From the NCBI GenBank assembly GCA_013287135.1, contig JABDEK010000030.1:1-42671 (forward strand): a DNA stretch of 42,671 nucleotides, in the 5' to 3' direction. A program made the translations under genes and the position numbers. Positions 18,353-39,724 of this stretch are shown here, one piece after another. Source of the DNA: Acidobacteriota bacterium. GTDB taxonomy: Bacteria > Acidobacteriota > Terriglobia > Acidiferrales > UBA7541. Position 1 is the stretch's first letter. Each line of letters begins with the position of its first letter. Under the pieces are notes generated by a model. It did not search any database, was not told the DNA's origin, and worked only from the letters and a program-made list of their open reading frames with translations.

Positions 18353-20593
18353 TCATTCGCGACTCGCCATGACGGGCGCCCTGCGCGCTGTGGCGAGCCC
18401 GCCAGGCCACCAGTTCCAATCGCCTGCAATACGAAGGAGCGCAGGACCGATCACAATACGAACGAGTGTCGCGTCAATCAACACGGCGACCGCCAACGTA
18501 AATCCGATCATCTTGACCACCAGGAAATCTCCGAAGGTGAATGCCGCAAATACCACGATCATGATCGCGGCGGCGCTCGTAATCAGGCCTGCGGTTCTAG
18601 CCAGAGCCTCCGGGATGGCATCCATTTCACTCAGCCCGCTCCTTCTGGCTTCGAGAACGCGTGCGACCAGAAATACCTCGTAATCCATGCTTAATCCGAA
18701 GACGATGGCAAAGGCGACAATCGGAACAAGGGGAAACACGCTGCCGGTCCCCCCAGGAACTCCCAGGAAGCTGCTTCCGTGTCCGTCTTGGATAACGAAA
18801 ACCAATGCTCCGAAGGAGGCCGCGACCGAGAATAGGTTCAGTGCGATGGCCTTCACGGCGGCGAAGATCGATCGGAACCCGCAGAGCAGAGCAAGGAGCG
18901 TCCCCCCCACTACCAGCGCCATTACGGAGGGAAAGCGATCTCTGATAATCGTTTCATAATCGGCGTTGAGTGCCGGGATGCCCCCAACGAGAAGGGTTGC
19001 GCCAGACACTCCGGTGAGAGCTGGCGCGCCGGTCTTACGGAGCTCCCGCACCCAGCTGACTTGGTCGCGCAGGGAGACCGAACTCGCGGGTAACACCTCA
19101 AGCAGCGCCGCTCGTCCGTCACTACTCAGGAACGTTCGACGCGTCTCCCGCGAGAGGTCAGGGAGCGAAGACCGGTTGTTCTCCGCAATCGTAGTTATGG
19201 AAATCACGCGGTCACAGCGAGGGTCGCTCGCGAGCCGCTTGGTGAGACGATCCAGCGCATTCCACCCCGCGTCGGTTTGCGCGACGGAATCCGTTGGAAG
19301 ATCGACAATGACGCGCAACGATTCAACAACGCCGCCCCGGTCCATCCGTTCAAGGGTGTGGAGCGCATGGACTGATTCCGCCGCCTGCGGAAGCCAATCC
19401 CCTCGGGGGAGGCTGGTATCCAGTCGTCTGACCTGCCAGGCGAGCAGAAGCAACGGAGTACCTGCCACAACGAGGGCAAGCCAGGGATGCGCGACAACCA
19501 TCTTTCCCCATTGCCGCCAGAGATTTCCCGTACGCGCGGCCCGACGCGCATCCAACTTTGGAGTAAAGGGCAATCGGCCAAGATCAATCCGCGGACCGAG
19601 CAGCAGCAGCGCTGCCGGAACGAGGGTATTGGTAAGCAACACACTCATTCCCGTCACCAGGAATCCCGCGACACCGATGGAACGGATTTCGCTGATCGGA
19701 ACCGTCAAGAGGGCTAGAAATCCGATAGCTACCGTTGAGGCTGAAATCAAGAGCGTGCGACCTGCCTGACGTGCCGCGATGACCGAGGCCGCGGGTCCGT
19801 CGTGCCCGGCGGAAATCGCTTCCCGGAAGCGGCTGATCATGAGGAGCGCGTAGTCGATTCCCAGGCCCAGGCCAAGCATGGTGGCCAAATTCTGAACCAG
19901 AATGGACAAGTGCCAGCGCTGGGCCAGGAATCCCGTAATCGCCAGAGTGGTCGCGATGGCAAGCTGGCCAACCGCCAATGGAATCAGGGCGGCGATCAGG
20001 CTTCCAAAAGCCAGCAGCAGAAGCGCGAGGGTCGCCGGGATCACCAGGCTTTCGCCGCGATGCACGTCGGCGGCGCTCGCTTTCCTAATATCGAAATTCA
20101 GTGGAATCTCGCCTGTGAGTTCGAGCTTCACCGCCGGATAACGGCCCCGCAGTTGATTTTCAAGCGAGCTTGCCAGCTGGTGAAGCTCCGGAACAAGCGA
20201 CTCGACTGGACCGCCGGTCGACGTGAGTCCCACGAGAACAAACGTTCCCCCTCCCCGGCCCAGAAAAATCGGATCGCGCAACTCGAGATAGGACACCACT
20301 CCTGAAACGCCGGGTTGCTCTCTCAGTCCTGCCACGATGGTTTCTAACGCTTGCCCGCCTTCCTCCGAATCCGCAGGCGGGAGTCCCTCGATTACCAGGA
20401 CAACGCGGTCCACAAACGGCGACCGAAAACGACTGGCCAGCTCTTCCCGGACAGTTTCAGCTTGGCTCCCTTCGACACGGGTTGCGGTCTCCAGGTGGCG
20501 CTCCGCGTGAAAAGAGAATGGAAGAAGTGCGATGGCTGCTGTGAGGACGATCCCTGACACCCAAAAACGGCGCACATCCATAGCTATTATCAT
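18353..20593 (-). CDS. MMPL-family (RND-type) membrane exporter
   Basis: This is a 746-residue MMPL protein, or 742 residues from the ATG at 20581. It has the duplicated RND layout: one N-terminal helix, a large periplasmic loop, then a block of five or six helices. This is followed by a second helix (about 345), a second loop and a second helix block. The G-L-G-I-D-Y-A-L-L-M-I-S-R-F-R-E motif and its second copy F-G-L-S-M-D-Y-E-V-F-L-V-A-R contain the aspartate used for proton coupling. Family members export lipids, hopanoids or hydrophobic compounds. It points away from the exported protein gene at 20722 and is separated from the lipid cluster by that gene, so linkage is only suggestive. 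Confidence 0.9.
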   Translation of the reverse strand: MIIAMDVRRFWVSGIVLTAAIALLPFSFHAERHLETATRVEGSQAETVREELASRFRSPFVDRVVLVIEGLPPADSEEGGQALETIVAGLREQPGVSGVVSYLELRDPIFLGRGGGTFVLVGLTSTGGPVESLVPELHQLASSLENQLRGRYPAVKLELTGEIPLNFDIRKASAADVHRGESLVIPATLALLLLAFGSLIAALIPLAVGQLAIATTLAITGFLAQRWHLSILVQNLATMLGLGLGIDYALLMISRFREAISAGHDGPAASVIAARQAGRTLLISASTVAIGFLALLTVPISEIRSIGVAGFLVTGMSVLLTNTLVPAALLLLGPRIDLGRLPFTPKLDARRAARTGNLWRQWGKMVVAHPWLALVVAGTPLLLLAWQVRRLDTSLPRGDWLPQAAESVHALHTLERMDRGGVVESLRVIVDLPTDSVAQTDAGWNALDRLTKRLASDPRCDRVISITTIAENNRSSLPDLSRETRRTFLSSDGRAALLEVLPASSVSLRDQVSWVRELRKTGAPALTGVSGATLLVGGIPALNADYETIIRDRFPSVMALVVGGTLLALLCGFRSIFAAVKAIALNLFSVAASFGALVFVIQDGHGSSFLGVPGGTGSVFPLVPIVAFAIVFGLSMDYEVFLVARVLEARRSGLSEMDAIPEALARTAGLITSAAAIMIVVFAAFTFGDFLVVKMIGFTLAVAVLIDATLVRIVIGPALLRIAGDWNWWPGGLATARRAPVMASRE

Positions 20594-20721
20594 GTCATAT
20601 CACACAAGATCGTCGTCACCAAAACTTCCCGTGGCGCCTAAGAACCACAAGGGCGAAAGAGGTGCTCGGTCCGGAACCGGTTCATGCGTTTGCGCTTAGT
20701 TTCGCAAGTTTACACTTGCGC

Positions 20722-21561
20722 ATGACTCACGTACGGAGCTATCTGAATCTGCTAAACTTCCCCATCGATTTAGGAGGATCAATTCGTACCTTATTATTGC
20801 TCGGACTGCTCGCCGCCATCCAAGCTGGAGTGGCCGACCCTCGCCTTGGCGGGTGGACGCTCATCTCCGCGCAGTCTAGTCTGGATCCTCCGAACCGGCT
20901 CTCCATAACACCTCTACATGACGGGGTGCATGTAGTCATGTCGGGCGAAACCCATATCGATTTCACTGCGAATTGGAACGGACACGAATCGTCCGCACCA
21001 GGCAATCTCGCGTTCAATCAAATTGAGCTGCGCAGGATCAATAAGAGGCAGGCGGAGGTCAAGGAGGAAAAGGATGGAACTGTTGTGGCGACGGTTCGCG
21101 AAAAACTTTCGAATGATGGGAACGAGCTGACGACTACGACCGCAACCAGGGGCCACGCCGATCAGATCACCGTGTGGACGCGAAGCGGAGGTACGAAGGT
21201 CGCCAGTGACCTCTTCGCAGGCGAATGGACCCAGGATCTCAGCAAGACCCGTTTGCGCCAAGGTTTGGTGCTCAAAATCGAGTCGGACGGAAGCGGTGGG
21301 ATCCGTTTTTTGGGTGACTTCAGCTATACCGCCCGTTTTGACGGAAAGCAATACGATCTAAAGAACTCGCGCAATGACACCGTGACGCTTGAACTTGTCG
21401 ATCCTCACACGGTGGACGCGAGCTACCGGCGGGACGATCAACTCACTCAAAAGGATAGGTGGGTGGTTTCCGCGGAAGGGCAGCAGATGACACTATCCAC
21501 CACAGGCACGTTGGAAACGGGCCAGCGGGTAACGGAGAAGCTCTTGTTTAAGAAGCAGTAG
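20722..21561 (+). CDS. Exported beta-rich protein of unknown function
   Basis: ATG 20722 is preferred to a GTG at 20662 because it leaves a signal peptide (hydrophobic L-L-L-L-G-L-L-A-A-I-Q-A-G, cut near residue 38). The 279-residue protein then reads G-G-W-T-L-I-S-A-Q-S-S-L-D-P and later F-A-G-E-W-T-Q-D-L-S-K-T-R. This is a repeated pattern of two lipocalin-like halves seen in many Acidobacteriota exported proteins of unknown function. The rest is alternating beta strands rich in threonine and charged residues. The 3' end overlaps the convergent megaenzyme gene by 14 nt. Confidence 0.7.
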   Translation: MTHVRSYLNLLNFPIDLGGSIRTLLLLGLLAAIQAGVADPRLGGWTLISAQSSLDPPNRLSITPLHDGVHVVMSGETHIDFTANWNGHESSAPGNLAFNQIELRRINKRQAEVKEEKDGTVVATVREKLSNDGNELTTTTATRGHADQITVWTRSGGTKVASDLFAGEWTQDLSKTRLRQGLVLKIESDGSGGIRFLGDFSYTARFDGKQYDLKNSRNDTVTLELVDPHTVDASYRRDDQLTQKDRWVVSAEGQQMTLSTTGTLETGQRVTEKLLFKKQ

Positions 21562-24500
21562 TGGATATCGCATCTGTGCAGTCCAGAAGCCGATCGCTCG
21601 CTGACACCGCGTTGACCTCACGAGCCGCGACCGAAATGATCCCCCTGCGATACATGAATTTCAGAATGCCGTTGACCGTATCTTCCAGAGACGGATCTGC
21701 TTTGCCCCACACGGAGGCATCGCGGGCCATTTGATAAGAAGAGCTGTCATAGCGTTTGAACTCCATCGCAGAGATGTTGTCGACAGAGCCCACCAAAAAA
21801 TCCAGCAGCGGAAAGAGAAGATCTTCCTTTCGGCATCTCCGGATCAGCTCGGGAACGAAGTCGGGAAGCCTGAATGTTTCGAATTGCCGGCCAGTCGCTT
21901 TGGTAATAAGCCCGGTAATATCCATCATGTTCGAATAATCGTCCCGCGTGACATGGTAAGTCTTATTCGCTGTGCCGGGAGTGGTAGAGATCGCAACGAT
22001 GTTGTTCGCCACAATGTCCGCCGGAACAAAGCTGACCTGGTTGAGAGTATCAACGCCAATGCCGTGATTCACCATGAAGGCAACCAAGCGAACGGCGATA
22101 TCGAAGTTGTTGCCTCCGCCCGTGACGGAAGGACTCACCAGAGCAGGCCGGAAAATCCGCGCGGAAAGTCCCCGGCTGCGCGCGTCGACAACCACCTGTT
22201 CCGCTACCCACTTTGATTGGCTGTACCCAAAATCGAGCAGCTCCATATTCTCGTTCAGGTCGCTCTCATTCAGGACTGATTTGACCGCCCAGCCAAACAC
22301 GAAGGTAGTCGAGACATAATTGAACTCTTTGGGCCTTCCCTCGAACGCCAATCTTACGACCTCATTGGTTCCCAGTACGTTCGCGTCACGCATCAGGTCG
22401 TAGTTGAACAGGTAATTCACGGTTGCACCGTTGTGGAACACCGTGTCGATTTCACTCGCGAGGAAATCCCACACGTCCTGCGTCAGGCCCAGCTTTGGCT
22501 GTCCTAGATCGCCGCAGACGGGGATCACCCGAGCTTCGAACATCTCCTTCAGATCTACCCCGCAAGGTCCCATTGACTCCATTGCAGCTCGCAGTCTTTG
22601 CCTACCCTGCTTTTCGTCGGAAGACCTGACAAGAACATAGATCTTCGCTCGTGTCTGTTCCAGCAAGCTTTTCATGAAAAATGGCCCTAGGAAGCCGGTC
22701 CCGCCGGTGAGCAGCACCTGATTCAGCATCGGTATCTCCGGCGTGGGCAAAGGCACCGGAGGCTCGAAGATCAGCTTCCGGTCATTGCTCATCATCTGCT
22801 TCTCAGCGGCGCACTGCTCTTCACGGAAAGCCGCAAGGGAATGACGCAGATGAACCAGTGCCTCTTCGGGAGCGCTCTTCAACTGTTCGGCTAGTCCAAA
22901 CAGCTCCGCTACGCCGACACGCTGAATGACACCAATATCTACCTGCCTCGCCAGCATCTCGGCGCCTTTATCTTTCAGGAGTTCTTTGAGCTCATGCATG
23001 AACACAACAAGATCCAGGGAATCCAGTCCAGCTTCGACGAGGTTGCACGATTCCAGACCTGTCAGGCTGTACCTGGCTTTCAATTCGGCGAAAGAGGAAT
23101 GCATGTCGGAATCGGACGCGGAGTTCCCGGCGTTCTTCTCCCGCGAAAAGTCGGAAAGAACGGTGAACTGACCTTGCAGCCACATCTGCTTGGTCTTATG
23201 GCGCATAATCTTACCCGAACTCGTTCTCGGAATCGCACGAGGCCCGATGAGGGAAATCACCGCCACTTCCACGTTGAGATAATTCCGGACCGCGGCGGCA
23301 ATCTTTCGTGCATCGGGAAGCGCCCTAGGATTTTTGACTTCGGCGACGATTGCCAGCGCAGGTTCGCTGTCTTCCTGAATCTGGAACGCGGCGACGCAGT
23401 TGTGCCGGATCAGACCGGATGATTTCTCCACAACGTTCTCAAGGTCGTGTGGGTAATAGTTTTGCCCGCGGAGAATAATCATGTCCTTGATGCGGCCGCA
23501 GACGTAGAGTTCGCCGTCGTGGAAGAATCCTATGTCGCCGGTCCGAAGGTAGCCGTCGTCATAGGGAGTATCGTCCACAAGCCGCGCGCGAAACTGCTTC
23601 AGAGTCAATTCCGGATTATTCCAGTAACCTCGGCACTTACCGCTTCCGGCGACCCAAATTTCGCCGGTGCGCTCTGGCTTAAGAGCGAAATGCCCTTCCG
23701 GATCCACGATCTTGACGTCGAGACCCGGGAGCGGCGTTCCACAACTGACAATCTGCGTGGCCCCCCCGATTTCAGAGACCTCCGTAGTCATGCGGGCCGT
23801 CCCCAGGGCCAGCGCACGCTTGTTGACGGAAACGATGTTGCGACCACCCAGTGAAACCGCCAGAGTATTCTCGGCCAGCCCGTAGGCGACATAGAAACTC
23901 TCGGACTTGAGTCCATAGGACTGAAACGCTTCTAGAAACCGGGTGTAGGTATCCGGCTTTACGGGTTCCGCGGCACACATCAAAACGCGAAGCGAGCTGA
24001 GATCACAAGCCTCCAGGCTCTCCTTGGAAAGCCTCCCGGCGCGCAGGCAATAGTCGTAGGCGAAGTTGGGGGCAGCCGTGGCGGTGGCGCGGTAGGTCGT
24101 CATCGCATTGAACCACAGGATCGGCCGCTGAATGAAGTCCATGGAAGCGAACCCGTACGTCGTGCCACCTTTCAGTGCTGGATATAGGTAGCACCCGATC
24201 AGTCCCATATCGTGATACTGCGGAAGCCAGGAAACGACGACCGGCGCGGGATGGTCGATCACGAGCGGACACGTATTCAGGATGTTTTCGTGCGTCACGA
24301 TCACGCCCTTGGGCTCCATGGTCGAACCCGACGTGTACTGGAGAAACAAGATCTTCGAAGGATCGACAGCCGGTCGGTCCGAAATCGCATCCACGAAATC
24401 TTCCGTGGCGATCCACGGAAGACCGGAAATGTAATCTACGTCGACGCCGCACGCCGAGACTCCACTTCTGGCGAGATTCGTCTTGAGGGATGCGTGGTAG

Positions 24501-24865
24501 TCTCTGCTCGTTAAGATCCCCGCCGCCTGGCAATCCTTTGCGATGTGGACCATTTTGTATAGGGCGCTCTGGAAGCCACGCGAACTGGGGGGATAGACCG
24601 GCACGGGGATCAATCCGGCGCGCACGCAGCCAAAGAATGCGCAGATCATTTCGAGCCCCGGCGGGTACGCAAGCAGGAGCCGGTCGCCCACCGCGAAACG
24701 ACCCTCTTTCCACAAATGTGCCGCGATCGCCTGCGCTCGGCGGAGAAACGACGCGTAGGTGTAGCTTTCGATCGGATCGCCGTTTACATCAAGGTACGAA
24801 TAAAGGAGTTTGTCCGGGTGCTCATCTGCCAACCTATCCAGGTGGCCCAAAATTGACGCCGTCAT
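21548..24865 (-). CDS. Fatty acyl-AMP ligase / acyl carrier / thioester reductase megaenzyme
   Basis: The 1105-residue protein activates a fatty acid, loads it on its own carrier domain and releases it reductively. ATG 24865 follows GGAGG by 11 nt; a TTG at 24868 is an alternative. Residues 1-580 form the adenylating domain with T-S-G-S-T (178-182), the FAAL-type W-L-P-Q-Y-H-D-M-G-L, and the R-T-G-D-I-G segment. Residues about 590-670 form the carrier domain with G-L-D-S-L and phosphopantetheine serine S616. Residues 715-1080 form the NAD-binding reductase with T-G-G-T-G-F-L-G (720-727) and catalytic Y881-x3-K885. The product would be a fatty aldehyde or, after a second reduction, an alcohol. 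A desaturase and P450 gene face it. ElbD-type ether-lipid enzymes have a similar order plus an acyltransferase, which is absent here. Confidence 0.9.
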   Translation of the reverse strand: MTASILGHLDRLADEHPDKLLYSYLDVNGDPIESYTYASFLRRAQAIAAHLWKEGRFAVGDRLLLAYPPGLEMICAFFGCVRAGLIPVPVYPPSSRGFQSALYKMVHIAKDCQAAGILTSRDYHASLKTNLARSGVSACGVDVDYISGLPWIATEDFVDAISDRPAVDPSKILFLQYTSGSTMEPKGVIVTHENILNTCPLVIDHPAPVVVSWLPQYHDMGLIGCYLYPALKGGTTYGFASMDFIQRPILWFNAMTTYRATATAAPNFAYDYCLRAGRLSKESLEACDLSSLRVLMCAAEPVKPDTYTRFLEAFQSYGLKSESFYVAYGLAENTLAVSLGGRNIVSVNKRALALGTARMTTEVSEIGGATQIVSCGTPLPGLDVKIVDPEGHFALKPERTGEIWVAGSGKCRGYWNNPELTLKQFRARLVDDTPYDDGYLRTGDIGFFHDGELYVCGRIKDMIILRGQNYYPHDLENVVEKSSGLIRHNCVAAFQIQEDSEPALAIVAEVKNPRALPDARKIAAAVRNYLNVEVAVISLIGPRAIPRTSSGKIMRHKTKQMWLQGQFTVLSDFSREKNAGNSASDSDMHSSFAELKARYSLTGLESCNLVEAGLDSLDLVVFMHELKELLKDKGAEMLARQVDIGVIQRVGVAELFGLAEQLKSAPEEALVHLRHSLAAFREEQCAAEKQMMSNDRKLIFEPPVPLPTPEIPMLNQVLLTGGTGFLGPFFMKSLLEQTRAKIYVLVRSSDEKQGRQRLRAAMESMGPCGVDLKEMFEARVIPVCGDLGQPKLGLTQDVWDFLASEIDTVFHNGATVNYLFNYDLMRDANVLGTNEVVRLAFEGRPKEFNYVSTTFVFGWAVKSVLNESDLNENMELLDFGYSQSKWVAEQVVVDARSRGLSARIFRPALVSPSVTGGGNNFDIAVRLVAFMVNHGIGVDTLNQVSFVPADIVANNIVAISTTPGTANKTYHVTRDDYSNMMDITGLITKATGRQFETFRLPDFVPELIRRCRKEDLLFPLLDFLVGSVDNISAMEFKRYDSSSYQMARDASVWGKADPSLEDTVNGILKFMYRRGIISVAAREVNAVSASDRLLDCTDAISTTAS

Positions 24866-25364
24866 CAATCAGCGATCCTCCAATGTTGAATAGAACGCAA
24901 GTCAGTAAACGAAACATCCCTCCCCAGCAAGCCAGCTGAACCGCGATTGAGTTTGAAAGTGCAGACCTGAAATGTAGGCCGACTGTGAGAATGTGTGCGT
25001 AATTTTTTCTCAGCATAAGCGTCGCTCGACGCTCTGGGGAACGGATGGTTTACTTTTTTGCCGCACAGGGACGCGGAGGGGACTTGCGCAGCTGCGCCGA
25101 CGTCCTATGGTCCCTTGCAAGAAGCCCTGTTCGTTATGGTTCATTGATAGTTATATGTTAGCAAACCATTTTGGACAATGCCATGTGTCGTCGCTTTCAC
25201 CGCTTCCACCACTGCACCTAGGCATCCTCCGTTCCGAATGTTCTTGATTGTCTTTACGGGCTCGCATTAAAATTATGCTGCGAGGTTGTCGGCGGCGCAG
25301 CGCCAATTTCGCTGAGGGTCAGGACCAGGGATGCGATGTATGGAACGCGTCGGGCCCAATTAGC
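24866..25364. promoter_or_regulatory. Divergent control region between the megaenzyme and desaturase genes
   Basis: These 499 bp separate the oppositely oriented megaenzyme and desaturase genes and carry no recognisable gene. A perfect 12-bp palindrome, GCGCAGCTGCGC, lies at 25086-25097 and a ten-base inverted repeat, GTCGCTCGAC, at 25021-25030. Either could be an operator. No convincing -35/-10 pair is proposed. A shared regulator for both directions is an inference from the layout. Confidence 0.45.
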
Positions 25365-26519
25365 ATGATCGCGGAGGCGCCGGTGACGTTCGAAACCGAA
25401 GCGGTGATCACCCAAGAGCCGGAGACGGCGGATCTGGTACCATCGGAAACCTCAGTGGCGTCGTTTATCGAACCGGTCGATGCATCTTCCTTTCCGAAAG
25501 TCTTACGTCGCCGCCTGGATAAGTTTTTTGCCGACCACAACATTACTCCCAAAGCGGACCATGCGATGTGGGTCAAGATCGCTGTGGGCCTGGCAGTCCT
25601 CGCGGGCACCTGGATTGCTCTGTATGCGCTGAGGCCCGGTTCATGGAAGTTTGTGGCCCTCTACCTTTTAGGTGGCCTCGCCCAGACATTCCTTTTGCTG
25701 AACATCGCCCATGACAGCAATCACAACGCCATCTCGTCCCGGCCGCGCGTCAACAAAACCCTGAACTATGTCTTCGATTTGTGCGGAATCAGCTCGTACA
25801 TGTGGCGTATCCTCCATCATCGGGGCCATCACTCCTGCATCAATCTCCACGGCGAGGATGATGCGCTTTCGGGACGCGGCATCTTTCGCTTTACCCCCTA
25901 TGAATCCCGCGCGCCATGGCACCGGTTCCAGCACATCTATGCGCTGTTCTTTTATGCACTGTTCTCTCTCGACTATGTGTTCTTCAGGGACTTCGAAAGC
26001 TTTTTCTTCCCGTCCCACGAATATCTGAAACGCGCCAAACATTCTCTGCGCGAATATGCCATTCTCGTTGCCGGCAAGGGCTTCTACCTCATTTACATGC
26101 TTGTCTTGCCGGTGATGGTGCTTGGAAAATCACCTCTGCTGGTCGCCGGGGCGTTCCTCCTGGTCCATTTGTTCATCGGTTTAGCCGTAACGCTTGTATT
26201 CCAGACGACGCACACCATCGACAGCACCTACTTTCCCTCGGACCGCGCTGAGTTTGACAACGGCGTGTATCACATCTTCGCAACAACGGCCGATTATGCG
26301 ACGGAAAACCCGCTCGTCGGTTGGCTCGCGGGCGGGCTCAACCATCACATCGTCCACCATCTGTGCCCTTTCGTGTGCCATACCCACTATGCCCCGCTGA
26401 CCAGGATCGTGAAGGAGACCGCCGAAGAGTTTGGGGTTCCCTATCGGCAGCACCCCACCATGACGCGGGCAATCCGGCATCATCTGATACTCTTGAAGCA
26501 ATTGGGGAACGAAAACTGA
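25365..26519 (+). CDS. Membrane fatty-acid desaturase
   Basis: The 384-residue di-iron membrane enzyme introduces a double bond, or possibly a hydroxyl or triple bond, into a lipid-bound acyl chain. ATG 25365 is chosen because residues encoded upstream look non-coding. Hydrophobic helices at about 65-83, 93-110, 200-215 and 240-285 flank three histidine boxes: H116-x3-H120, H151-H152-x2-H155-H156 and H327-H328-x2-H331-H332. The third box is N-H-H-I-V-H-H-L-C-P. This is the acyl-lipid/linoleoyl-CoA-desaturase branch. Because it is next to a carrier-protein-containing acyl activating enzyme and a P450, an acyl-carrier-bound substrate is likely, as in JamB-type enzymes. That is inference. Confidence 0.9.
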   Translation: MIAEAPVTFETEAVITQEPETADLVPSETSVASFIEPVDASSFPKVLRRRLDKFFADHNITPKADHAMWVKIAVGLAVLAGTWIALYALRPGSWKFVALYLLGGLAQTFLLLNIAHDSNHNAISSRPRVNKTLNYVFDLCGISSYMWRILHHRGHHSCINLHGEDDALSGRGIFRFTPYESRAPWHRFQHIYALFFYALFSLDYVFFRDFESFFFPSHEYLKRAKHSLREYAILVAGKGFYLIYMLVLPVMVLGKSPLLVAGAFLLVHLFIGLAVTLVFQTTHTIDSTYFPSDRAEFDNGVYHIFATTADYATENPLVGWLAGGLNHHIVHHLCPFVCHTHYAPLTRIVKETAEEFGVPYRQHPTMTRAIRHHLILLKQLGNEN

Positions 26520-26617
26520 TTCTGAGCATTTTATCTTTTACCTATGGCCGCGCTACCACTTCCTACAAGTGACATGAAATCACCTGCGGTTCAAGGCAAG
26601 TATCAGGACGGCTGGGT

Positions 26618-27991
26618 ATGACCTTATCCGCGCCTGTCCCCGTTGTTTCCCGATTTCGCTGTTTTGCGGACTCTCGCGCAATGTTCCGCAATCCCGTGCA
26701 GGTTTTGTCGAAGTACAACGATATCTTCGGCGACACATTCCGGCTCTATTTGGGCGGTCTCAAGGAAGCGATCGTTACGATCGATCCCGCTGTCATTCAG
26801 CACGTGTTAAAGACCAATGCGGAGAACTACCAAAAATCCGAAATTCAAGTAAAGCGGATGGGCCACTTCCTGGGGAAAGGTCTTCTCACCACCCACGGAG
26901 AAGCCTGGCGCACGCAGCGGCGTCTTATCCAGAAGGGCTTCGATCGAACGCAACTCGATGCGCTGTCCTCAATCATGCAGGACTCCCTCGCCGAGTCGCT
27001 GCGGGATTTCGACAGACAGGTCCGTCGCGGCCCCGTCGATATCTACCCCCACCTGATGAAAATTACATTCGCGATGGTCTCCCGATCGCTCTTTGGCGCA
27101 CGGTTGAAGGACGAAGACATCGATCTGGTCAGCCATACCATCTGCACCGTCCAGGAATTCATTGTTCGGCAAACCCTTCAGCCCTACCTGAATGCCTGGT
27201 TCGCCGTCTCGGGGGAACTGCGCAGACACGAAGACATGCGAACCCGCGCGGACGCCATTCTGCTCGAATACATCAGGAAGCGCCGCAACGAACCGCCCGG
27301 CCACGATCTGCTGCAGACTTTGATGGATGCGCGTTACAGCGATGGCGAAGGCATGAGCGATGAGCTCATCCTCAGTGAGAGCATGCAACTTCTGGTGGCC
27401 GGCCATGAAACATCGTCGAATGCGCTATCGTGGCTTCTTTATCTTTTGAGCTCGCGTCCGGATTGTCTCGAAAGGGTAAGGCAGGAATTTGATTCCGTGC
27501 TCGGCGAAGCGCCTCTGAGCCACAGCGACGTTCCCAAATTCGAATTTGCGACTCAGGTCATTCAGGAGGCGCTCCGCCTCTACCCGCCGTTTTGGATGAT
27601 CGACCGCATGGCTGTCGCGGACGACCGCGTAGGCGACCTCGCCATTCCCCGTGGATCGATGGTCATTGTGTATGTGTACGGTGCGCACCATGCTCCGCGT
27701 TACTGGCAGAATCCGGAGAATTTCGATACGGAGCGTTTCACCAAAGCCAACGAAAAGCTGCGCACGCCCTTCACCTTCCTTCCCTTCGGGGGCGGACCGC
27801 GAGGCTGTATCGGTGGAAATTACGCGATGCTGCAGATCCTCATGATTTTGAGCGATCTGCTCAGAAAATACGATTTTCAGCTGGCTCCGGGCCAAATGAT
27901 CGAAGCTCGTCCGATGGTCATTCTGCGGCCGAAGCACGGAATCCGCATGACGTTCACTCATACCATCGCTCTGGCCCCCTGCACCGCATAA
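26618..27991 (+). CDS. Cytochrome P450 (fatty-acid hydroxylase-like)
   Basis: The 457-residue heme-thiolate monooxygenase has all the class signatures. The oxygen-binding A-G-H-E-T-S lies at 261-266 and the E-x-x-R pair is E317/R320. The heme-binding loop F-G-G-G-P-R-G-C-I-G has its cysteine ligand at C397. Overall similarity is to bacterial class II-like and CYP4/CYP102-type fatty-acid hydroxylases, but it has no fused reductase. An external ferredoxin or flavodoxin would be needed, and none is visible in the window. It lies 98 bp downstream of the desaturase on the same strand and is probably part of the same operon, acting on the acyl chain handled by the megaenzyme. Confidence 0.93.
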   Translation: MTLSAPVPVVSRFRCFADSRAMFRNPVQVLSKYNDIFGDTFRLYLGGLKEAIVTIDPAVIQHVLKTNAENYQKSEIQVKRMGHFLGKGLLTTHGEAWRTQRRLIQKGFDRTQLDALSSIMQDSLAESLRDFDRQVRRGPVDIYPHLMKITFAMVSRSLFGARLKDEDIDLVSHTICTVQEFIVRQTLQPYLNAWFAVSGELRRHEDMRTRADAILLEYIRKRRNEPPGHDLLQTLMDARYSDGEGMSDELILSESMQLLVAGHETSSNALSWLLYLLSSRPDCLERVRQEFDSVLGEAPLSHSDVPKFEFATQVIQEALRLYPPFWMIDRMAVADDRVGDLAIPRGSMVIVYVYGAHHAPRYWQNPENFDTERFTKANEKLRTPFTFLPFGGGPRGCIGGNYAMLQILMILSDLLRKYDFQLAPGQMIEARPMVILRPKHGIRMTFTHTIALAPCTA

Positions 27992-29507: not shown

Positions 29508-29676
29508 TCTCTGATCGGGGCGATCCTTATCATTAATAAAGACTGCTTTTGCTAGGCCTAAGAATTTATGCGATACAACTGTAGGAAACAGAACCCGCGG
29601 TCCTGTCCTGAGCTTGCGACCAAGTAAAGGGTCAACAGACCGTTCATTTCCGTGTGTTCAGAAAGGACCATCATCG

Positions 29677-30705
29677 GTGCAGACGTCACAAATTTTTCAA
29701 GCATGGGGCAAGATCCTCAAGGGTGAACCTCCCTCTCTGTCGATAGAAATCACGCGTGAATGCCCTTTGAAATGTCCGGGATGTTACGCGTATGACGACG
29801 CACACCTAGGCGGCGGACAGACATTGCGCGACCTGAACGATAGAAGAGGCCAATCCCTAGTAGACGGAGTTCTTGAAGTCGTCGATCGGCTGAAGCCTTT
29901 GCACTTGTCTATCGTCGGGGGTGACCCGCTGGTCCGCTATCGCGAACTTGAGTTGTTGATTCCCTTGTTATTGGGGCGCGGAATCCATGTGCAGATTGTT
30001 ACCAGCGCCTTCCGGACAATGGGTCCGACCTGGGCAAGCCTGGAGCATCTGCATATCGTCGTGTCCATCGATGGCCTGCAACCAGAACACGATATCCGCC
30101 GAGCGCCAGCAACGTACGACCGCATTCTAAAAAACATCCTGGGGCAGAGAGTCACGATCCACTGCACGGTCACAGGTCAAATGATGAAGCGACCAGGATA
30201 CTTGGGCGAATTCCTTGAATTCTGGACGCCACGCCCCGAGATCAAGAAGGTGTGGTTCAGCCTGTTCACTCCTCAAATCGGAGATCAGATGCCGGAAATC
30301 CTGGGTTTTGAAGAGCGGGCGCAAGCTCTTGCGGACATGACCCAATTGCGAAAACAATATCCGAAGCTTGATATGCCGCAGGCGGTGATTCGGCAGTTCG
30401 CCTCCCCGCCACACAGCCCGAAAGAATGTGTTTTCGCGCTCACAACCCAGACGTTGTCGGCAGACCTGGAGACAAAGATCACCCCCTGCCAGTTTGGTGG
30501 GAATCCTGACTGCGCATCCTGCGGATGCATCGCATCGATGGGTTTGGCTTCCGTAGCTTCGCACAAATTGGGAGGAATCCTCCCGGTTGGCGCCATTTTC
30601 AAAGCCTCCCTCAAGATCGGACAGAACAGAGCGAAATCAAGAGCGAAGTATCAAATTAAAAATCCTCTACAGATATCGCAGGTAAAGAAAACAAACGTAC
30701 AATAG
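29677..30705 (+). CDS. Radical SAM protein with C-terminal cysteine cluster
   Basis: GTG 29677 is preferred because AAAGGA lies about 10 bases upstream; a TTG at 29614 would add 21 residues. The 342-residue enzyme has the 4Fe-4S radical SAM motif C29-x3-C33-x2-C36 (C-P-L-K-C-P-G-C-Y-A). It also has the S-I-V-G-G-D-P-L glycine motif and the V-V-S-I-D-G-L strand of the half barrel. Near the C-terminus, T-P-C-Q-F-G-G-N-P-D-C-A-S-C-G-C-I resembles an auxiliary cluster-binding site of the SPASM type. The reaction cannot be named. It is followed after 22 bp by a class II aldolase gene, so the two probably act in one pathway. It is the main intact cargo of the tRNA island. Confidence 0.88.
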   Translation: MQTSQIFQAWGKILKGEPPSLSIEITRECPLKCPGCYAYDDAHLGGGQTLRDLNDRRGQSLVDGVLEVVDRLKPLHLSIVGGDPLVRYRELELLIPLLLGRGIHVQIVTSAFRTMGPTWASLEHLHIVVSIDGLQPEHDIRRAPATYDRILKNILGQRVTIHCTVTGQMMKRPGYLGEFLEFWTPRPEIKKVWFSLFTPQIGDQMPEILGFEERAQALADMTQLRKQYPKLDMPQAVIRQFASPPHSPKECVFALTTQTLSADLETKITPCQFGGNPDCASCGCIASMGLASVASHKLGGILPVGAIFKASLKIGQNRAKSRAKYQIKNPLQISQVKKTNVQ

Positions 30706-30727
30706 TCGGGGAAGGAAAAATTAGTTT

Positions 30728-31807
30728 GTGAAGAATGCAGCCCAGCCCAAGCTTTTGTCCACTCGATATGAAAGGGAGGTAGTTTCCCTCGGCGAACTAT
30801 CCGCGCGGCTCGGCAGCAATCCACTCTTGGTACAAGCCAGCAATGGAAATACATCTATAAAGCTAGATGGAATTCTATGGATTAAAGCATCTGGCAAATG
30901 GCTAGCACATGCAATGCAAGAAGAGATGTTCGTTTCGGTTGAATTGGCGTCCGTTAAGGAGGCTGTTCAGAACAACAAGGAAATTGCGCCGCACTATGAC
31001 CTGAGGGACGAGCCCCGACCATCGATTGAAACACCAATGCACGCCATCCTTCGGCATCGTGTTGTCATCCACGTGCACTCTGTCAATGCTATCGCCTGGG
31101 CGATACGTCTAGATGGACCCGAGCAACTAAAAGAACGACTGGCTGGCCTACGGTGGCAATGGATTCCGTACGCAGGATCCGGCATCCCGCTAGCCCGAGA
31201 AATCGAAAAGAAAGTGGGCCGTGCGCGGGAAACCGACGTTCTCGTACTTGGAAACCACGGACTGGTTATTTGCGGACATGATTGTTACTCAGCCGAAAAG
31301 CTTCTTCGTGACGTTGAACGACGACTTGCGATTGCTCCCCGAAGATTCCCAAGGCCCGACACCTCAGTGCTGAATACGATTGCCCGTTCTTCAAAATGGC
31401 AATTCCCTGATGTCGATTCACTGCATGCATTAGGAACGGATCCAGACTCTCAAAAGATTCTAAAAGGCGGCATTCTCTATCCATGCCAGGCTATTTTTCT
31501 GGGCCATACGATGCCTCTCTGGCCGCCTGCGGCCGTAATTTCTAAATTCAAAGAGCGCTTGATTGGCAAAGATACAACTCCTCCTTTCATAGCTGTGGAG
31601 AGAAGTGGAGTCATGCTCAACAAGAAGATGACCAGCGCAGAGCGCGCCACCTTGATTGGTCTTGTGCAAGTGACTCAACGAACGGAAAGATCCGCGCGAC
31701 TTCGCTACCTGGAAAAGGCGGAAATATCGGATGTCCTGAGCAAGGGCGCACATGGTTGCAAAGAAGGAGTTGTGATGGAGGAAAAAGCAAATCCTATTGC
31801 GAGATAG
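30728..31807 (+). CDS. Class II aldolase/adducin-family protein
   Basis: The 359-residue protein starts with GTG 30728 (AAGGA about 12 bases upstream). The zinc-dependent class II aldolase fold is shown by S-N-G-N-T-S, K-A-S-G-K, the histidine pair in V-I-H-V-H-S, and L-V-L-G-N-H-G-L-V. These include the expected zinc-ligand histidines. The C-terminal 150 residues extend beyond a minimal aldolase and contain no recognised domain. Class II aldolases cleave or form sugar phosphates such as fuculose or rhamnulose phosphate; the substrate here is unknown. It appears translationally linked to the upstream radical SAM gene. Confidence 0.85.
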   Translation: MKNAAQPKLLSTRYEREVVSLGELSARLGSNPLLVQASNGNTSIKLDGILWIKASGKWLAHAMQEEMFVSVELASVKEAVQNNKEIAPHYDLRDEPRPSIETPMHAILRHRVVIHVHSVNAIAWAIRLDGPEQLKERLAGLRWQWIPYAGSGIPLAREIEKKVGRARETDVLVLGNHGLVICGHDCYSAEKLLRDVERRLAIAPRRFPRPDTSVLNTIARSSKWQFPDVDSLHALGTDPDSQKILKGGILYPCQAIFLGHTMPLWPPAAVISKFKERLIGKDTTPPFIAVERSGVMLNKKMTSAERATLIGLVQVTQRTERSARLRYLEKAEISDVLSKGAHGCKEGVVMEEKANPIAR

Positions 31808-32509: not shown

Positions 32510-32601
32510 GGTAACAGTTAGCGGTTTTCCGAGGTAACGTTCCTGGTTTCTTCAAATGGTGGAGCCGGCGGGGTTCGAACCCGCGACCTCCTCGATGCCA
32601 T
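32510..32601 (-). repeat. Right attachment-site copy overlapping tRNA-Ala
   Basis: This is the partner of the repeat at 28480-28567 and comprises the 3' half of tRNA-Ala plus about 45 bp beyond its 3' end. A few bases of extra sequence (GAGGTAACG) lie between the two shared outer blocks, so the copies have diverged. Confidence 0.75.
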
Positions 32602-32632
32602 CGAGGCGCGCTCCCAACTGCGCTACGGCCCC
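32557..32632 (-). tRNA. tRNA-Ala(GGC)
   Basis: Read on the minus strand, the gene starts GGGGCCGTAGCGCAG and ends CGGCTCC-A-CCA. The acceptor stem GGGGCCG pairs with CGGCTCC (one G-U). The D-arm carries the usual AGCGCAGTTGG. The anticodon stem CTCGA/TCGAG encloses anticodon GGC (bases 32597-32599). The T-arm contains GGGTTCGAACCCC. The 3' CCA is encoded. Length is 76 nt. The 3' half is duplicated 4 kb to the left. Confidence 0.95.
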
Positions 32633-34447: not shown

Positions 34448-35848
34448 ATGCCCAAAATTACTTTTCTAGGCGCAGCTGGAACTGTCACAGGATCGAAATA
34501 TCTGATCGAAGCCGGCGGCAAACGCCTCCTGGTGGATTGCGGCCTGTTCCAAGGCCCCAAGGAACTTCAGCAACGCAACTGGAATAATCTCCCAATCGAT
34601 CCGGCCAGCATCGATTGGGTTCTGTTGACGCACGCGCATATCGACCACACTGGCTATATACCACGGCTAGTGCAAAACGGTTTCCGCGGCCCCATTTATT
34701 CGAATGCGGCCACGCGCGAATTGTGCGAATTACTTCTGCTGGATTCGGCGCACCTGCAGGAAGAGGATGCCCAGTATGCAGCCAAGAAAAACTACAGTTC
34801 GCATCATCCTCCGCTTCCGCTTTACACCGTGGCCCAAGCGCAAACTTCCCTGGCGCAGTTTCGGGAGATTCCGCGAGCAGATGTTTTTTCGATCAGTCCG
34901 GAGTTTTCGGTGCGGCCTCACGACGCAGGACACATCCTCGGCTCCTCCTGGCTGGAGCTCACCATCACCGAAAACGGCAAGCAGACACTCGTCGTTTTCT
35001 CCGGCGATGTGGGCCGGTATGATCAGCCCATCTTGAAGGACCCTGAATCGCCGACGCACGCCGATTTTCTCCTGTGCGAGTCCACCTATGGCGATCGCGA
35101 CCATCCCACCGGCTCGGTGCCCGACGAACTGGCTGACGTAATCAACCGAGTCGCAAAGCGCGGTGGCGCAGTGGTGGCGCCTGCTTTCGCTGTGGGGCGA
35201 ACGCAGACTCTGATGTACTACTTGCGTGAACTTGAAGAAAAGCAACGCATCCCGCACCTTCCAGTTTATGTCGATAGCCCGATGGCTATTAACGTGACGG
35301 ACATTTACGTGCGCCATAAGGAAGACCACGATGCCGATTTCGTGCAACAGGAAAACCAAGGCAATCTCGATCCGCTAAACATGAAAGAAGTGCACATGAC
35401 GCGCTCGGTGGAGGATTCAAAGAGCATCAACGAAGTAGTTGCCCCGTGCATCATTATTTCGGCCAGCGGCATGGCCAACGGCGGGCGAATCCTGCATCAT
35501 CTGGCGCGTCGTCTGCCCGATTCACGCAGCGCCGTATTGCTTGTAGGCTATGAAGCGGAAGGCACGGGAGGCCGCGCGCTAGAAGATGGAGCACAATATC
35601 TTCGCATTCACGGCGAAGAAGTGCCGGTGAAAGCCGAGATTGTTAAAATTGATCAGCTATCCGCGCACGCGGGTCGTAGCGAGCTTTTGCGATGGCTTTC
35701 AGGGATTACTGCGCCACCGCGCCAGACATTCCTGGTACACGGCGAGCCTAACGCGCTTGAATCCTTCCACGGCGCTGTAACCGGCCGGTTTCACTGGCCG
35801 GTCACCGTCCCGGAGTATTTGCAGTCGATCGATTTGGGAACCCAATGA
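34448..35848 (+). CDS. Metallo-beta-lactamase/beta-CASP ribonuclease
   Basis: The 466-residue protein has the zinc-binding motif H62-A-H64-I-D66-H67 and later H-D-A-G-H-I-L-G-S and F-S-G-D-V-G. The beta-CASP domain follows with P-A-F-A-V-G-R-T-Q and the A-S-G-M-A-N-G-G-R motif, then the C-terminal S-A-H-A-G-R and V-H-G-E-P. This set is typical of the prokaryotic Ysh1/CPSF73-like RNA-processing nucleases. It is expected in the cytoplasm, acting in RNA maturation or turnover. The stop is four bases from the convergent unknown gene. Confidence 0.93.
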   Translation: MPKITFLGAAGTVTGSKYLIEAGGKRLLVDCGLFQGPKELQQRNWNNLPIDPASIDWVLLTHAHIDHTGYIPRLVQNGFRGPIYSNAATRELCELLLLDSAHLQEEDAQYAAKKNYSSHHPPLPLYTVAQAQTSLAQFREIPRADVFSISPEFSVRPHDAGHILGSSWLELTITENGKQTLVVFSGDVGRYDQPILKDPESPTHADFLLCESTYGDRDHPTGSVPDELADVINRVAKRGGAVVAPAFAVGRTQTLMYYLRELEEKQRIPHLPVYVDSPMAINVTDIYVRHKEDHDADFVQQENQGNLDPLNMKEVHMTRSVEDSKSINEVVAPCIIISASGMANGGRILHHLARRLPDSRSAVLLVGYEAEGTGGRALEDGAQYLRIHGEEVPVKAEIVKIDQLSAHAGRSELLRWLSGITAPPRQTFLVHGEPNALESFHGAVTGRFHWPVTVPEYLQSIDLGTQ

Positions 35849-36306: not shown

Positions 36307-37521
36307 TCACTTCTGTCGCGCGCTAGAACTAACTTTTAACTTGGCCAGCCCTTCGGCGGCTGCTTGAAATGTCTTTTCCGTTTTGCAAAATGTGAAACGC
36401 AAATGAGTTCGGCCGTGCGCCGGATCTTGGTAAAAGCTGGAACCCGGAACGGCGGCCACGCCAATTTCCTTTACCAAGTATTTCGCAAACGCAATGTCAT
36501 CGGGAAATCCAAAGGCAGAAATATCCGTCATGATGTAATACGCACCACGCGGCTTGAAACACCGGAACTCGGCATCGGTGAGAATTCCCAGCAGGCGGTC
36601 GCGCCGCACGGTATATTCGCGGGCCAGCGTGTCGTAATACTCCTGCGGAAAATGCAACGCGGTTGCGCCCGCCTCTTGCAGCGGCGCAGCGGCTCCCACC
36701 GTAAGAAAATCGTGTACCTTGCGAATCCGCGATGTCGCCTCGGGAGGCGCGATAGCCCAGCCAACTCTCCACCCGGTCACGCTATAAGTTTTAGAGAGCG
36801 CGTTGATCGTAATAGTTCGCTCGCGCATGCCGTCCAGCGTGGCCATGGAAATGTGCCGCGCTCCGTCGTACAGCATGTGCTCGTAAATTTCGTCGGTGAT
36901 GGCGAACGCATTCCATCGTACGCAGAGATCCCGAATTTGCTCCAGTTCTGCGCGTTCAAAAACTTTCCCCGTGGGATTGTTCGGCGTATTTAGGATGATC
37001 GCTTTCGTGCGCGAACCAAACGCGCCAGCCAGTTCCTGCGGGTCGAAACTCCAATCCGGCTCGCGCAGTTTCACAAAACGCGGCTGCGCGCCGGAAAGAA
37101 TCGCGTCCGGCCCATAATTTTCGTAGAACGGTTCGAACACCACTACTTCGTCGCCCGGATTCACGATAGCCATCATCGACGACATCATCGCTTCCGTCGA
37201 TCCGCAACAAACCGTAATTTCGCGCTCCGGATCAACTTGCACGCCTTGTATGCGCGCGAATTTTTCAGCGATCGCGTTGCGCAACGATTTCGCGCCCCAC
37301 GTAATGGCGTACTGATTGATGTCGGCGGCAATCGCTTCCTGCGCCGCACGCTTGATTTCGATGGGAGCGGGAAAATCCGGGAAACCCTGCGACAAATTCA
37401 CAGCTTTATACTGGATGGCCAACCGCGTCATTTCGCGGATTACGGATTCGGTGAACTGCGCGGTCTTCGAGGAAAGTTCAGGGCGAATGCTTGCGATTCG
37501 CGGCGAGTTTGACGGGTTCAT
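36307..37521 (-). CDS. Pyridoxal-phosphate aminotransferase, class I/II
   Basis: The 404-residue cytoplasmic enzyme transfers amino groups between amino acids and 2-oxo acids. ATG 37521 is chosen over an ATG at 37536; both overlap the upstream lytic transglycosylase gene. Class signatures are present: N-L-S-Q-G-F-P-D-F, N-T-P-N-N-P-T-G-K, D-E-I-Y-E-H, and S-K-T-Y-S-V-T-G-W-R-V-G-W with the lysine that binds PLP. The C-terminus has R-x-T-F-C for carboxylate recognition. The pattern, especially Q-G-F-P-D, fits the kynurenine/methionine aminotransferase (YbdL-like) branch. Confidence 0.93.
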   Translation of the reverse strand: MNPSNSPRIASIRPELSSKTAQFTESVIREMTRLAIQYKAVNLSQGFPDFPAPIEIKRAAQEAIAADINQYAITWGAKSLRNAIAEKFARIQGVQVDPEREITVCCGSTEAMMSSMMAIVNPGDEVVVFEPFYENYGPDAILSGAQPRFVKLREPDWSFDPQELAGAFGSRTKAIILNTPNNPTGKVFERAELEQIRDLCVRWNAFAITDEIYEHMLYDGARHISMATLDGMRERTITINALSKTYSVTGWRVGWAIAPPEATSRIRKVHDFLTVGAAAPLQEAGATALHFPQEYYDTLAREYTVRRDRLLGILTDAEFRCFKPRGAYYIMTDISAFGFPDDIAFAKYLVKEIGVAAVPGSSFYQDPAHGRTHLRFTFCKTEKTFQAAAEGLAKLKVSSSARQK

Positions 37522-39724
37522 CTTTTTGACCACCATACAGCTTGCGGTAAATGTCTGCGTTGCGCGTAACTATTTCCACATATTCGCGCGTCTCGGTGAA
37601 CGGGATCGAGTCGACAAATTCAGCGAGGTCCCTGTACGATTGCCCCGCGTTCCACAAAGCCACACGGTCTTCGCCAGCATTGTACGCGGCTAGCGCCGAT
37701 TCGACACTGCCGAAATCATTTTTCAAACCCGCCACATAAATGGTGCCCAGCCTTACGTTGTAATCCGGATCCGTGAGCAGCGAATGGGAATATTTAACCT
37801 TTGCCTTCTTGGCCATTTGCCGCGCAGTCTTGGGCAAAAGCTGCATCAAACCAAACGCGTTTGCGCCGGAGTGCGCGTCAGGTTCGAATGCTGATTCCTG
37901 ACGGATCAAGCCAGCGGTTAGCATCGGATCGATTCCCGCGTGCGCGGACCATTGCCGTATCGAAGTGCCGAACGGAAGCGGATAGGCCGCGAGCCAAACG
38001 TCGTGAGGAACTTGATCGAACGGCCGCGAATCCAGTTGCGGATAAATCTGTCGCACGGTGACGATAGCGGCTCCTACATGCCCGGCAGCCACCGCAGCTT
38101 GCGCAGCCTCCAACAGAAGCCGCGGCTCGCCAGTGGACGCATAAGCGGCGCGAAGTTCGAGTTCCGCGGACGCGTCAAATGCGATTGTGCTCAACGCGTC
38201 CGCGCGCGCTTGCCGTTCAGCCGCCGCTGGCGGAATCGCACCGAGCGGCTGCGCCGGTAGAACCGGCGGGACTTTTTCCAGCACTTCCGCATTAACGACC
38301 GGCCCCGCGCCCAGTGAACGCACGCGCACCATGGCAAGACTCTCGAAATAATTCTGCGGGTAGCGTTCCTGCAATTTGCCGTAATAACCGCGCGCGAGCG
38401 ACGGATTGCCGGCTTCCTCCAGCAATCGGCCTAGCCAGTACAACGCATCGGGTGTGAACTGCGAGCCCGGGAAACGGCGAAGATGTTCTGTCAGCAGATC
38501 GCTTGCCCCCGGCTGGCGTTTTAGAACCGCGACCCATGCCACTCGCCATTGCGAAGGCTTGGCGTCCGCCATCATCGGGAAATTATCGGCGAGCCGTTTG
38601 TAATAACCGGCTGCGCGGTCGCGATCCATCTGTACCCAATAATAATTCCCGGCCAGATACAGAGCGGCTTCAGTCCACTCGCTGGCCGGCGCACGCGATG
38701 CCGCTGATTCGACTGCCGTGGCCATTTCGGTGTCACGGTGTTGCGAGCGATACCACTGCGCCAACGCGAGATATCTTTCCGCGTCCACGTCTGCATCGGC
38801 GATCTGCAGATTTAGGATCGCGGTTGGAGTGCTCCCCAGCTGCAACTCGCATTCCAGCACGCGCAATGCGGCGCGCTCGCTCGCTGCACCGGAAAGTTGC
38901 GACACCATATGCGAGTACTCGTTGCGCGCATCGCCCCACAGTTTTGCGCCGAAAAGTATTCCGGCATGCGTGAGTTGCTGATCGAGCGGAACGGGCGGAA
39001 TTTGGTCGCCAGCCTTGCCGCTGCGCAGAAAATTTAATTTCTCGCTGGCCTCGCGAGCCTGCGTGCTGGTGGGATATTGCAAATAGATTGCTTGATAGTC
39101 CTTGGCGGCCTCCGCTAGCTGGGCTGATTGCTCGTGAGCTTCGCCGCGCAGAAAAAGCAGGGCCGGGCGTTGCGACGTGAGCGCATACGCATCGAGCGCT
39201 GCCAGAGCGTCGGCGGGTTGGTTTAACGCTAGCGTGGCCGTGCCAATCGCTTGCAGAGCCTGTTCCGTCATCACCGAGTTTGGATATTTTTCGCGAAATT
39301 CCTGCAGCTGCGCCAACGCATCAGCGTCGTGGTTCAGCGCGATATTCGTTTCCGCGCTCCAGTACAGCGCGTAGTCACCCAGCAGCGGGTCGCTCTTTGC
39401 ACGCGCCAGCCATTTGGCGGCGTCTTGATAATGCGCCTTGTTGTAGTCGTGGTAGCCGAGCGCCAAGGCAGCGCGCGACGCGAGCGCTCCGGAAGATTTC
39501 TGCATGGCAAACGCGCTAAGCCGCGCATAGGCAACCGTGGGGTTTCTTTGTTTCAGACCGCGCGTCAATTGTTCGAGCTGTTTTTCACTCGGCGCAGAAG
39601 TTTTCTTCGCCGCCGCAGCCGCTGTCTTCGCTTTCGTAGTATCCGGGGATGTTGCTGCAACAGAAGTAAGAGAAAAAATCAGGCAGGCTGCCGCCACACT
39701 AATAGAGCGGACGGCGAATTTCAT
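37478..39724 (-). CDS. Soluble lytic transglycosylase with TPR-rich N-terminal half
   Basis: ATG 39724 is chosen because a signal peptide follows (residues 1-24, ending S-V-A-A). The open frame upstream has no homology and overlaps the next gene. The 748-residue protein has a long helical TPR-like superhelix (about 60-580) and a C-terminal SLT domain. In the SLT domain, catalytic E610 lies in R-Q-E-S-A-F and is followed by G-L-M-Q-L-L-P and A-Y-N-A-G-E. It cleaves peptidoglycan in the periplasm, like E. coli Slt70. The stop is inside the start of the aminotransferase gene (44-nt overlap in another frame), and the preceding gene ends 10 bp before this start. Confidence 0.93.
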   Translation of the reverse strand: MKFAVRSISVAAACLIFSLTSVAATSPDTTKAKTAAAAAKKTSAPSEKQLEQLTRGLKQRNPTVAYARLSAFAMQKSSGALASRAALALGYHDYNKAHYQDAAKWLARAKSDPLLGDYALYWSAETNIALNHDADALAQLQEFREKYPNSVMTEQALQAIGTATLALNQPADALAALDAYALTSQRPALLFLRGEAHEQSAQLAEAAKDYQAIYLQYPTSTQAREASEKLNFLRSGKAGDQIPPVPLDQQLTHAGILFGAKLWGDARNEYSHMVSQLSGAASERAALRVLECELQLGSTPTAILNLQIADADVDAERYLALAQWYRSQHRDTEMATAVESAASRAPASEWTEAALYLAGNYYWVQMDRDRAAGYYKRLADNFPMMADAKPSQWRVAWVAVLKRQPGASDLLTEHLRRFPGSQFTPDALYWLGRLLEEAGNPSLARGYYGKLQERYPQNYFESLAMVRVRSLGAGPVVNAEVLEKVPPVLPAQPLGAIPPAAAERQARADALSTIAFDASAELELRAAYASTGEPRLLLEAAQAAVAAGHVGAAIVTVRQIYPQLDSRPFDQVPHDVWLAAYPLPFGTSIRQWSAHAGIDPMLTAGLIRQESAFEPDAHSGANAFGLMQLLPKTARQMAKKAKVKYSHSLLTDPDYNVRLGTIYVAGLKNDFGSVESALAAYNAGEDRVALWNAGQSYRDLAEFVDSIPFTETREYVEIVTRNADIYRKLYGGQKDEPVKLAANRKHSP

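Follow-up and report, generated by a model that had tools for sequence, protein, structure and literature searches.

We have identified a conserved five-gene cluster at positions 18353-27991 of a 42,671-nt stretch of acidobacterial DNA (bases 1-42671 of contig C30; hereafter, the window), taken from a 4.38 Mb genome that is 79% complete. At its center is a megaenzyme, a single chain with the domains of a fatty acyl-AMP ligase (FAAL), a carrier and a thioester reductase. A first-pass annotation had proposed a cluster of three genes, encoding the megaenzyme, a fatty acid desaturase and a cytochrome P450; the set in fact comprises five, with an exporter and a secreted-looking barrel protein added. 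It combines known kinds of enzymes in a new way. Our favored reading of this gene content, which we rate at better than even, is that the cluster would activate a fatty acid, modify it, release it reductively and export the product. That annotation could name no product, and neither can we; in the open-access literature, we found no paper describing the cluster and no product given for it. The five genes and the region between the two divergent ones are:

18353..20593, minus strand: MmpL3-type resistance-nodulation-division (RND) lipid exporter (PF03176, 4.8e-68)
20722..21561, plus strand: secreted-looking, mostly beta protein with an N-terminal hydrophobic segment and a predicted fatty-acid-binding-like barrel
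21551..24865, minus strand: putative FAAL-carrier-thioester reductase megaenzyme, 1105 aa from its ATG (Pfam and NCBIfam domains, FAAL-type insertion, conserved residues)
24866..25364, no strand: divergent intergenic region between megaenzyme and desaturase (16-locus alignment, promoter scan)
25365..26519, plus strand: three-His-box membrane desaturase of fatty acids; the conserved start gives it 384 aa, within an open reading frame (ORF) that opens at 25248 (PF00487)
26618..27991, plus strand: cytochrome P450 (PF00067, 4.6e-84)

Conservation of the five-gene cluster

Homologous loci were sought by a pattern scan of a genome collection with one genome per species (84,980 species). The scan matched 162 relatives of the megaenzyme, and the best 80 were kept as loci: 48 with megaenzyme identities of 76-93%, called acidobacterial-type, and 32 with identities of 45-55%, called distant. 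Partner genes were counted only at loci with enough flanking sequence, here termed testable. All five genes were seen at 32 of the 48 acidobacterial-type loci, and in 32/32 they have one order and orientation: P450, desaturase, divergent megaenzyme, convergent barrel protein and exporter. The genes flanking the unit vary, and we therefore define the unit as 18353-27991. The desaturase and P450 lie beside the megaenzyme at 37/37 testable loci, the exporter at 35/36 and the barrel protein at 34/36. The functional linkage proposed for the first three genes is supported by their co-occurrence; instead of being scattered in relatives, they stay together at acidobacterial-type loci, and one or both tailoring genes lie near most distant homologues. 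Departures from the common layout are few: the exporter and barrel protein are farther off at L056, no barrel protein was seen at L059, and extra ORFs separate the megaenzyme from the barrel protein at L042, L056, L066 and L069. Recombination near the divergent region is suggested at L048 and L069, where the megaenzyme is close (88-91%) and the desaturase and P450 are more distant (75-79%). L082, labelled Verrucomicrobia, carries an acidobacterial-type cluster; its label is doubtful and probably wrong, because it branches beside Bryocella and Edaphobacter.

By record title, the distant loci comprise 24 from Bacteroidota, two each from Acidobacteriota, Gemmatimonadota and Planctomycetota, and one each from Verrucomicrobiota and Calditrichia. 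Their neighbors within 5.5 kb were identified by tblastn with the window proteins, a search that could miss unlike desaturases. A related desaturase was found at 20 of the 32, a related P450 also at 20, at least one of the two at 28 and both at 12. Unlike at acidobacterial-type loci, the tailoring genes are co-directional with the megaenzyme. Extra families at these loci include a phosphopantetheinyl transferase (10 loci), a second desaturase (10) and a sulfotransferase (9), each assigned by Pfam on one or two members. The sulfotransferase family occurs beside L094, L096, L103, L104, L106, L109, L110, L111 and L117 (eight Bacteroidota and one Verrucomicrobiota by title), and L085 adjoins another, different sulfotransferase; these neighbors hint at sulfated products. 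At L095 and L100, two genes directly upstream of the megaenzyme encode a short-chain dehydrogenase and a flavin monooxygenase-like protein, as assigned by Pfam for L100, and further tailoring by these is possible. An apparent megaenzyme-P450 fusion at L113 was rejected as merely an overlapping frame.

Predicted functions of the cluster proteins

The three ORFs of the first-pass annotation are intact and lie where it had placed them (megaenzyme, 21548-24868, minus strand; desaturase, 25248-26519, plus strand; P450, 26618-27991, plus strand), and Pfam and NCBIfam models agree with its domain calls. The start of the megaenzyme was corrected to the ATG at 24865, which is preceded by GGAGG. Its AMP-binding domain (PF00501, 1.7e-65, residues 11-416) is accompanied by an AMP C-terminal domain (PF23024) and a thioester reductase domain (PF07993, 1.8e-59, residues 720-957), and the chain scores 237.5 bits against the thioester reductase model TIGR01746, above the cut-off of 213.35. 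Residue conservation was taken from alignments of 72 megaenzyme, 52 desaturase and 56 P450 sequences. The carrier between ligase and reductase has Ser617 in a GLDSLD motif kept in 72/72 sequences. The FAAL-type insertion, missing from CoA ligases, is 28-34 residues long in 72/72; among the other AMP-binding proteins of the same genome, L006 also has it, and L001-L005 and L007 have it in short form or not at all. Curated NCBIfam FAAL models gave the megaenzyme at best 333-337 bits, under their cut-offs of 600-922. In the reductase, Thr854 (69/72), Tyr882 (71/72) and Lys886 (71/72), which we take to be the catalytic residues, are kept.

The desaturase (PF00487, 1.4e-29) was assigned a start at the ATG at 25365 because its homologues are 384 aa long. 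Of the 52 sequences, 51 or 52 retain each of the checked histidines of its boxes (His of box 1, HH of box 2, HH of box 3); more variable are His191 (34/52) and position 367 (His in 42, Gln in 10). Phylogenetically, the cluster desaturases of Acidobacteriota and Saprospiraceae form one group, with a support of 82 in the Shimodaira-Hasegawa-like approximate likelihood ratio test (SH-aLRT), in a tree with very long background branches and unsure deep order. A sequence search of the PDB with the desaturase found no relative. In the P450, Cys397, Glu317 and Arg320 are each present in 56/56 sequences, and its best solved relatives are a putative P450 (7wzl), plant LUTEIN DEFICIENT 5 and P450 4B1. 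The exporter is nearer to MmpL3 (4.3e-59) than to MmpL4/5 (3.7e-29 or weaker), and the stop of the barrel-protein gene overlaps the 3' end of the megaenzyme gene.

With the starts of the megaenzyme and desaturase corrected, the divergent region between them spans 24866-25364. It had been proposed as a control region linking the genes. The region exists, and no regulatory site could be shown in it: conserved blocks in an alignment of 16 loci occur mostly among close relatives, and a promoter scan gave one promoter-like match against 0.6 in shuffled sequence, about what chance would give.

Distribution and genomic setting

Of 399 class genomes searched with an E-value limit of 1e-150, 26 match the megaenzyme; for the genus the count is 2 of 20 (G000 and G011). 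G011 has the cluster at a different genomic place from that in the window. RpoB, queried in two non-carriers and 19 of the 25 other carriers (21 genomes in all), matched in 19. Both values are available for 18 carriers, and in 18/18 the megaenzyme resembles its window counterpart more closely than RpoB does, with the largest gap in G219 and G276 (90% versus 74%); slow evolution of the megaenzyme could also raise these identities. G004, with an RpoB identity of 98%, has no cluster megaenzyme. Strains named Edaphobacter lichenicola occupy three places in the megaenzyme tree (L041 next to the group of the window, L044 with L079, and L046). The cluster is patchy and probably moves horizontally. 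No match was found in plasmids (E-value 1e-150) or in viral contigs (exact peptide patterns). The megaenzyme is represented by at least 120 protein clusters at 91-98% identity, and records with the gene cluster include Edaphobacter, Granulicella, Terriglobus and Bryocella.

Outside the cluster, synteny with relatives breaks at a tRNA gene:

32557..32632, minus strand: tRNA-Ala(GGC), a synteny boundary defined by the relatives' genes beyond its 3' end

Five relative regions were fetched; the four that reach the tRNA-Ala (G001, G004, G011 and G018, all of the same genus) share other genes past its 3' end. One neighbor gene of the relatives was not found in this genome. A rearrangement, or an island, may account for the 32.5 kb to the left of the tRNA-Ala (1-32556). 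The 3' end of the tRNA-Ala was not found a second time in the window or the rest of the incomplete genome, and no integrase was found among the 35 distinct window ORFs scanned with Pfam; an island is therefore plausible but unproven. Across the 48 acidobacterial-type loci, all eight tRNA genes found (at seven loci) lie at most 1.7 kb from the outer end of the cluster. This zone covers 115 kb of the 427 kb of flank (p 3e-5), and its limit was chosen after the data were seen; at a limit of 0.7 kb, five of the eight are included (p 8e-4). The tRNA of the window, 4.6 kb from the P450 and outside the 1.7 kb zone, does not fit this pattern. A scan of 25 of the 32 distant loci found two tRNAs and one transfer-messenger RNA.

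Other genes of the window lie beyond the P450. At 29614-31807, a radical S-adenosylmethionine (SAM) gene precedes one of the class II aldolase type, and relatives of the former occur in the same genus (89% in G007, 80% in G011). The two genes (starting at 29614 and 30728) were considered as cluster members and rejected: the radical SAM gene was matched at 2 of 80 loci, L064 (47%) and L118 (24%), and ORF families recovered only L064. A beta-CASP metallo-hydrolase gene at 34448-35848 was matched in 16 of 20 genus genomes; its product scores 386.7 bits against NF045584 (type VII Cas14), under the cut-off of 800.

Proposed pathway and comparison with known systems

In the proposed pathway, the ligase would convert a free fatty acid to acyl-AMP and load it on the fused carrier. 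The desaturase and P450 would likely desaturate and hydroxylate the chain, either while it is carrier-bound or after its release, and in either order. The reductase, with NAD(P)H, would free an aldehyde, which a second reduction could turn into an alcohol. Extraction from the inner membrane would fall to the MmpL3-type pump, and transport in the periplasm to the secreted-looking barrel protein. We predict as the likely product a fatty aldehyde or alcohol that is unsaturated, hydroxylated and exported; like the product, the substrate, the bond positions and the order of steps are inferred.

Several observations weigh against this pathway. Four distant loci out of 32, two of them truncated at one side, show neither tailoring gene, the Saprospirales-type loci with long flanks L083, L084, L092, L112 and L114 have the desaturase only, and L100, L103 and L113 have the P450 only; because partner sets vary, the megaenzyme does not depend on either tailoring step. 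The exporter and barrel protein were found at 0 of the 32 distant loci. No redox partner adjoins the P450 or the desaturase among the scanned window ORFs, and the megaenzyme carrier scores 15.7 bits against PF00550, below the cut-off of 20.8. Foldseek TM-scores of the barrel protein are low (0.29), and lipid binding would not follow from a shared fold. Mantel correlations cannot tell co-function from co-inheritance.

An improbable alternative is that the megaenzyme feeds the synthesis of alkyl ether membrane lipids with a fatty alcohol or aldehyde, the role proposed for ElbD in Myxococcus. In its favor, the ligase-carrier-reductase logic is shared with ElbD, and some Acidobacteria make ether-type membrane lipids (PMC11868695). 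The megaenzyme has no acyltransferase (PlsC-type) domain, however, and its genome encodes a separate protein, L006 on contig C99, with a carrier-FAAL-acyltransferase architecture like ElbD minus the reductase. Of the 36 other genomes searched in the family, 28 contain a frame of 958-1045 aa that matches FAAL (domains checked for L006 only). The cluster is patchy and has its own exporter. An alkyne or terminal-alkene maker of the JamABC kind, in which the desaturase would be an acetylenase acting on the carrier-bound chain and the reductase would free an alkynyl aldehyde, we judge less probable still. Mullins et al. (PMC8406139) treat co-encoded FAAL, carrier and PF00487 desaturase domains, as found here, as evidence of alkyne potential, but section 5 of that paper, on a JamA tree of 4,990 sequences, names no Acidobacteria. 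Also against this reading, the conserved acidobacterial set has a single desaturase and no thioesterase or rubredoxin; as it does not have the two additional desaturases either, assignment to the polyyne clusters was rejected.

Capping of the aldehyde or hydroxyl by a transaminase or sulfotransferase encoded elsewhere, as happens with an amine in tambjamine, seems about as doubtful as an alkyne. The sulfotransferases beside L085 and nine other distant homologues would fit it, but neither enzyme is among the five conserved families, and the block that includes the aminotransferase at 36307-37536 is conserved in relatives at cluster-free places. That the genes are individually common, functionally unrelated neighbors is very improbable. 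The distant loci without both tailoring genes, and the several other desaturase and AMP-binding copies in the genome, are what chance would allow; against it stand the partner counts and the invariant gene order, the constant presence of desaturase and P450 at acidobacterial-type loci despite differing outer neighbors, and the recurrence of related neighbors in other phyla in a different order.

The exported fatty aldehyde or alcohol remains our preferred product. Acidobacteriota are abundant in soils, and to our knowledge little is known of their secreted chemistry. As a tentative extension, the cluster may be a mobile lipid-secretion cassette that settles beside many different tRNA genes; its products in Acidobacteriota would form a new class of fatty aldehydes or alcohols that are unsaturated, hydroxylated and exported, with the MmpL3-type pump coupled to a dedicated secreted fatty-acid-binding-like carrier; Bacteroidota might use the same core for sulfated versions. 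Several carriers of the cluster are named strains, from which a new secreted lipid could come to light, and the exporter with its linked fatty-acid-binding-like protein would offer a way to study how lipids are passed on by MmpL3-type pumps. In the open-access literature on Acidobacteria, a search for desaturase and P450 gave nothing relevant, and the mention of FAAL in PMC5006271 is no more than a reference entry.

Among known systems, carboxylic acid reductases (CARs) have the domain order adenylation-carrier-reductase. The megaenzyme shares this order and differs in its FAAL-type adenylation domain; at 142.6 bits against NF041592, far below the cut-off of 1300, it was rejected as a CAR. ElbD of Myxococcus xanthus, to which the first-pass annotation had linked the megaenzyme, likewise has ligase, carrier and reductase domains. 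ElbD in addition has an acyltransferase domain and an N-terminal reductase-like domain (PMC9131029, PMC9426513); the megaenzyme has its reductase at the C-terminus, and membership was rejected because the acyltransferase is absent from it and present instead in L006. The suggested likeness to JamABC and polyyne systems holds for the joint encoding of FAAL, carrier and membrane desaturase and fails in the architecture: JamABC has a separate FAAL and carrier, whereas here the carrier is fused and release is predicted to be reductive. The closest chemical precedent is the tambjamine pair TamA/TamH. As described in PMC9594044 and PMC5939613, the tail pathway of tambjamine YP1 in Pseudoalteromonas tunicata (TamA, TamT, TamH) resembles the cluster in its ligase-carrier fusion, predicted chain dehydrogenation and aldehyde-making thioester reductase. 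The adenylation domain of TamA is most like FAALs (PMC5939613), and in PMC9594044 this FAAL-like ligase-carrier passes its acyl chain to TamH, with acid-to-aldehyde conversion measured and no product from TamH with acyl-CoA. In tambjamine the reductase is separate and fused to a transaminase, a domain that Pfam did not find in the megaenzyme, and TamT is predicted to be FAD-dependent (PMC9594044, PMC5939613). In the cluster described here, by comparison, the reductase is fused to the ligase-carrier, and a membrane desaturase, a P450 and an MmpL3-type exporter are added.
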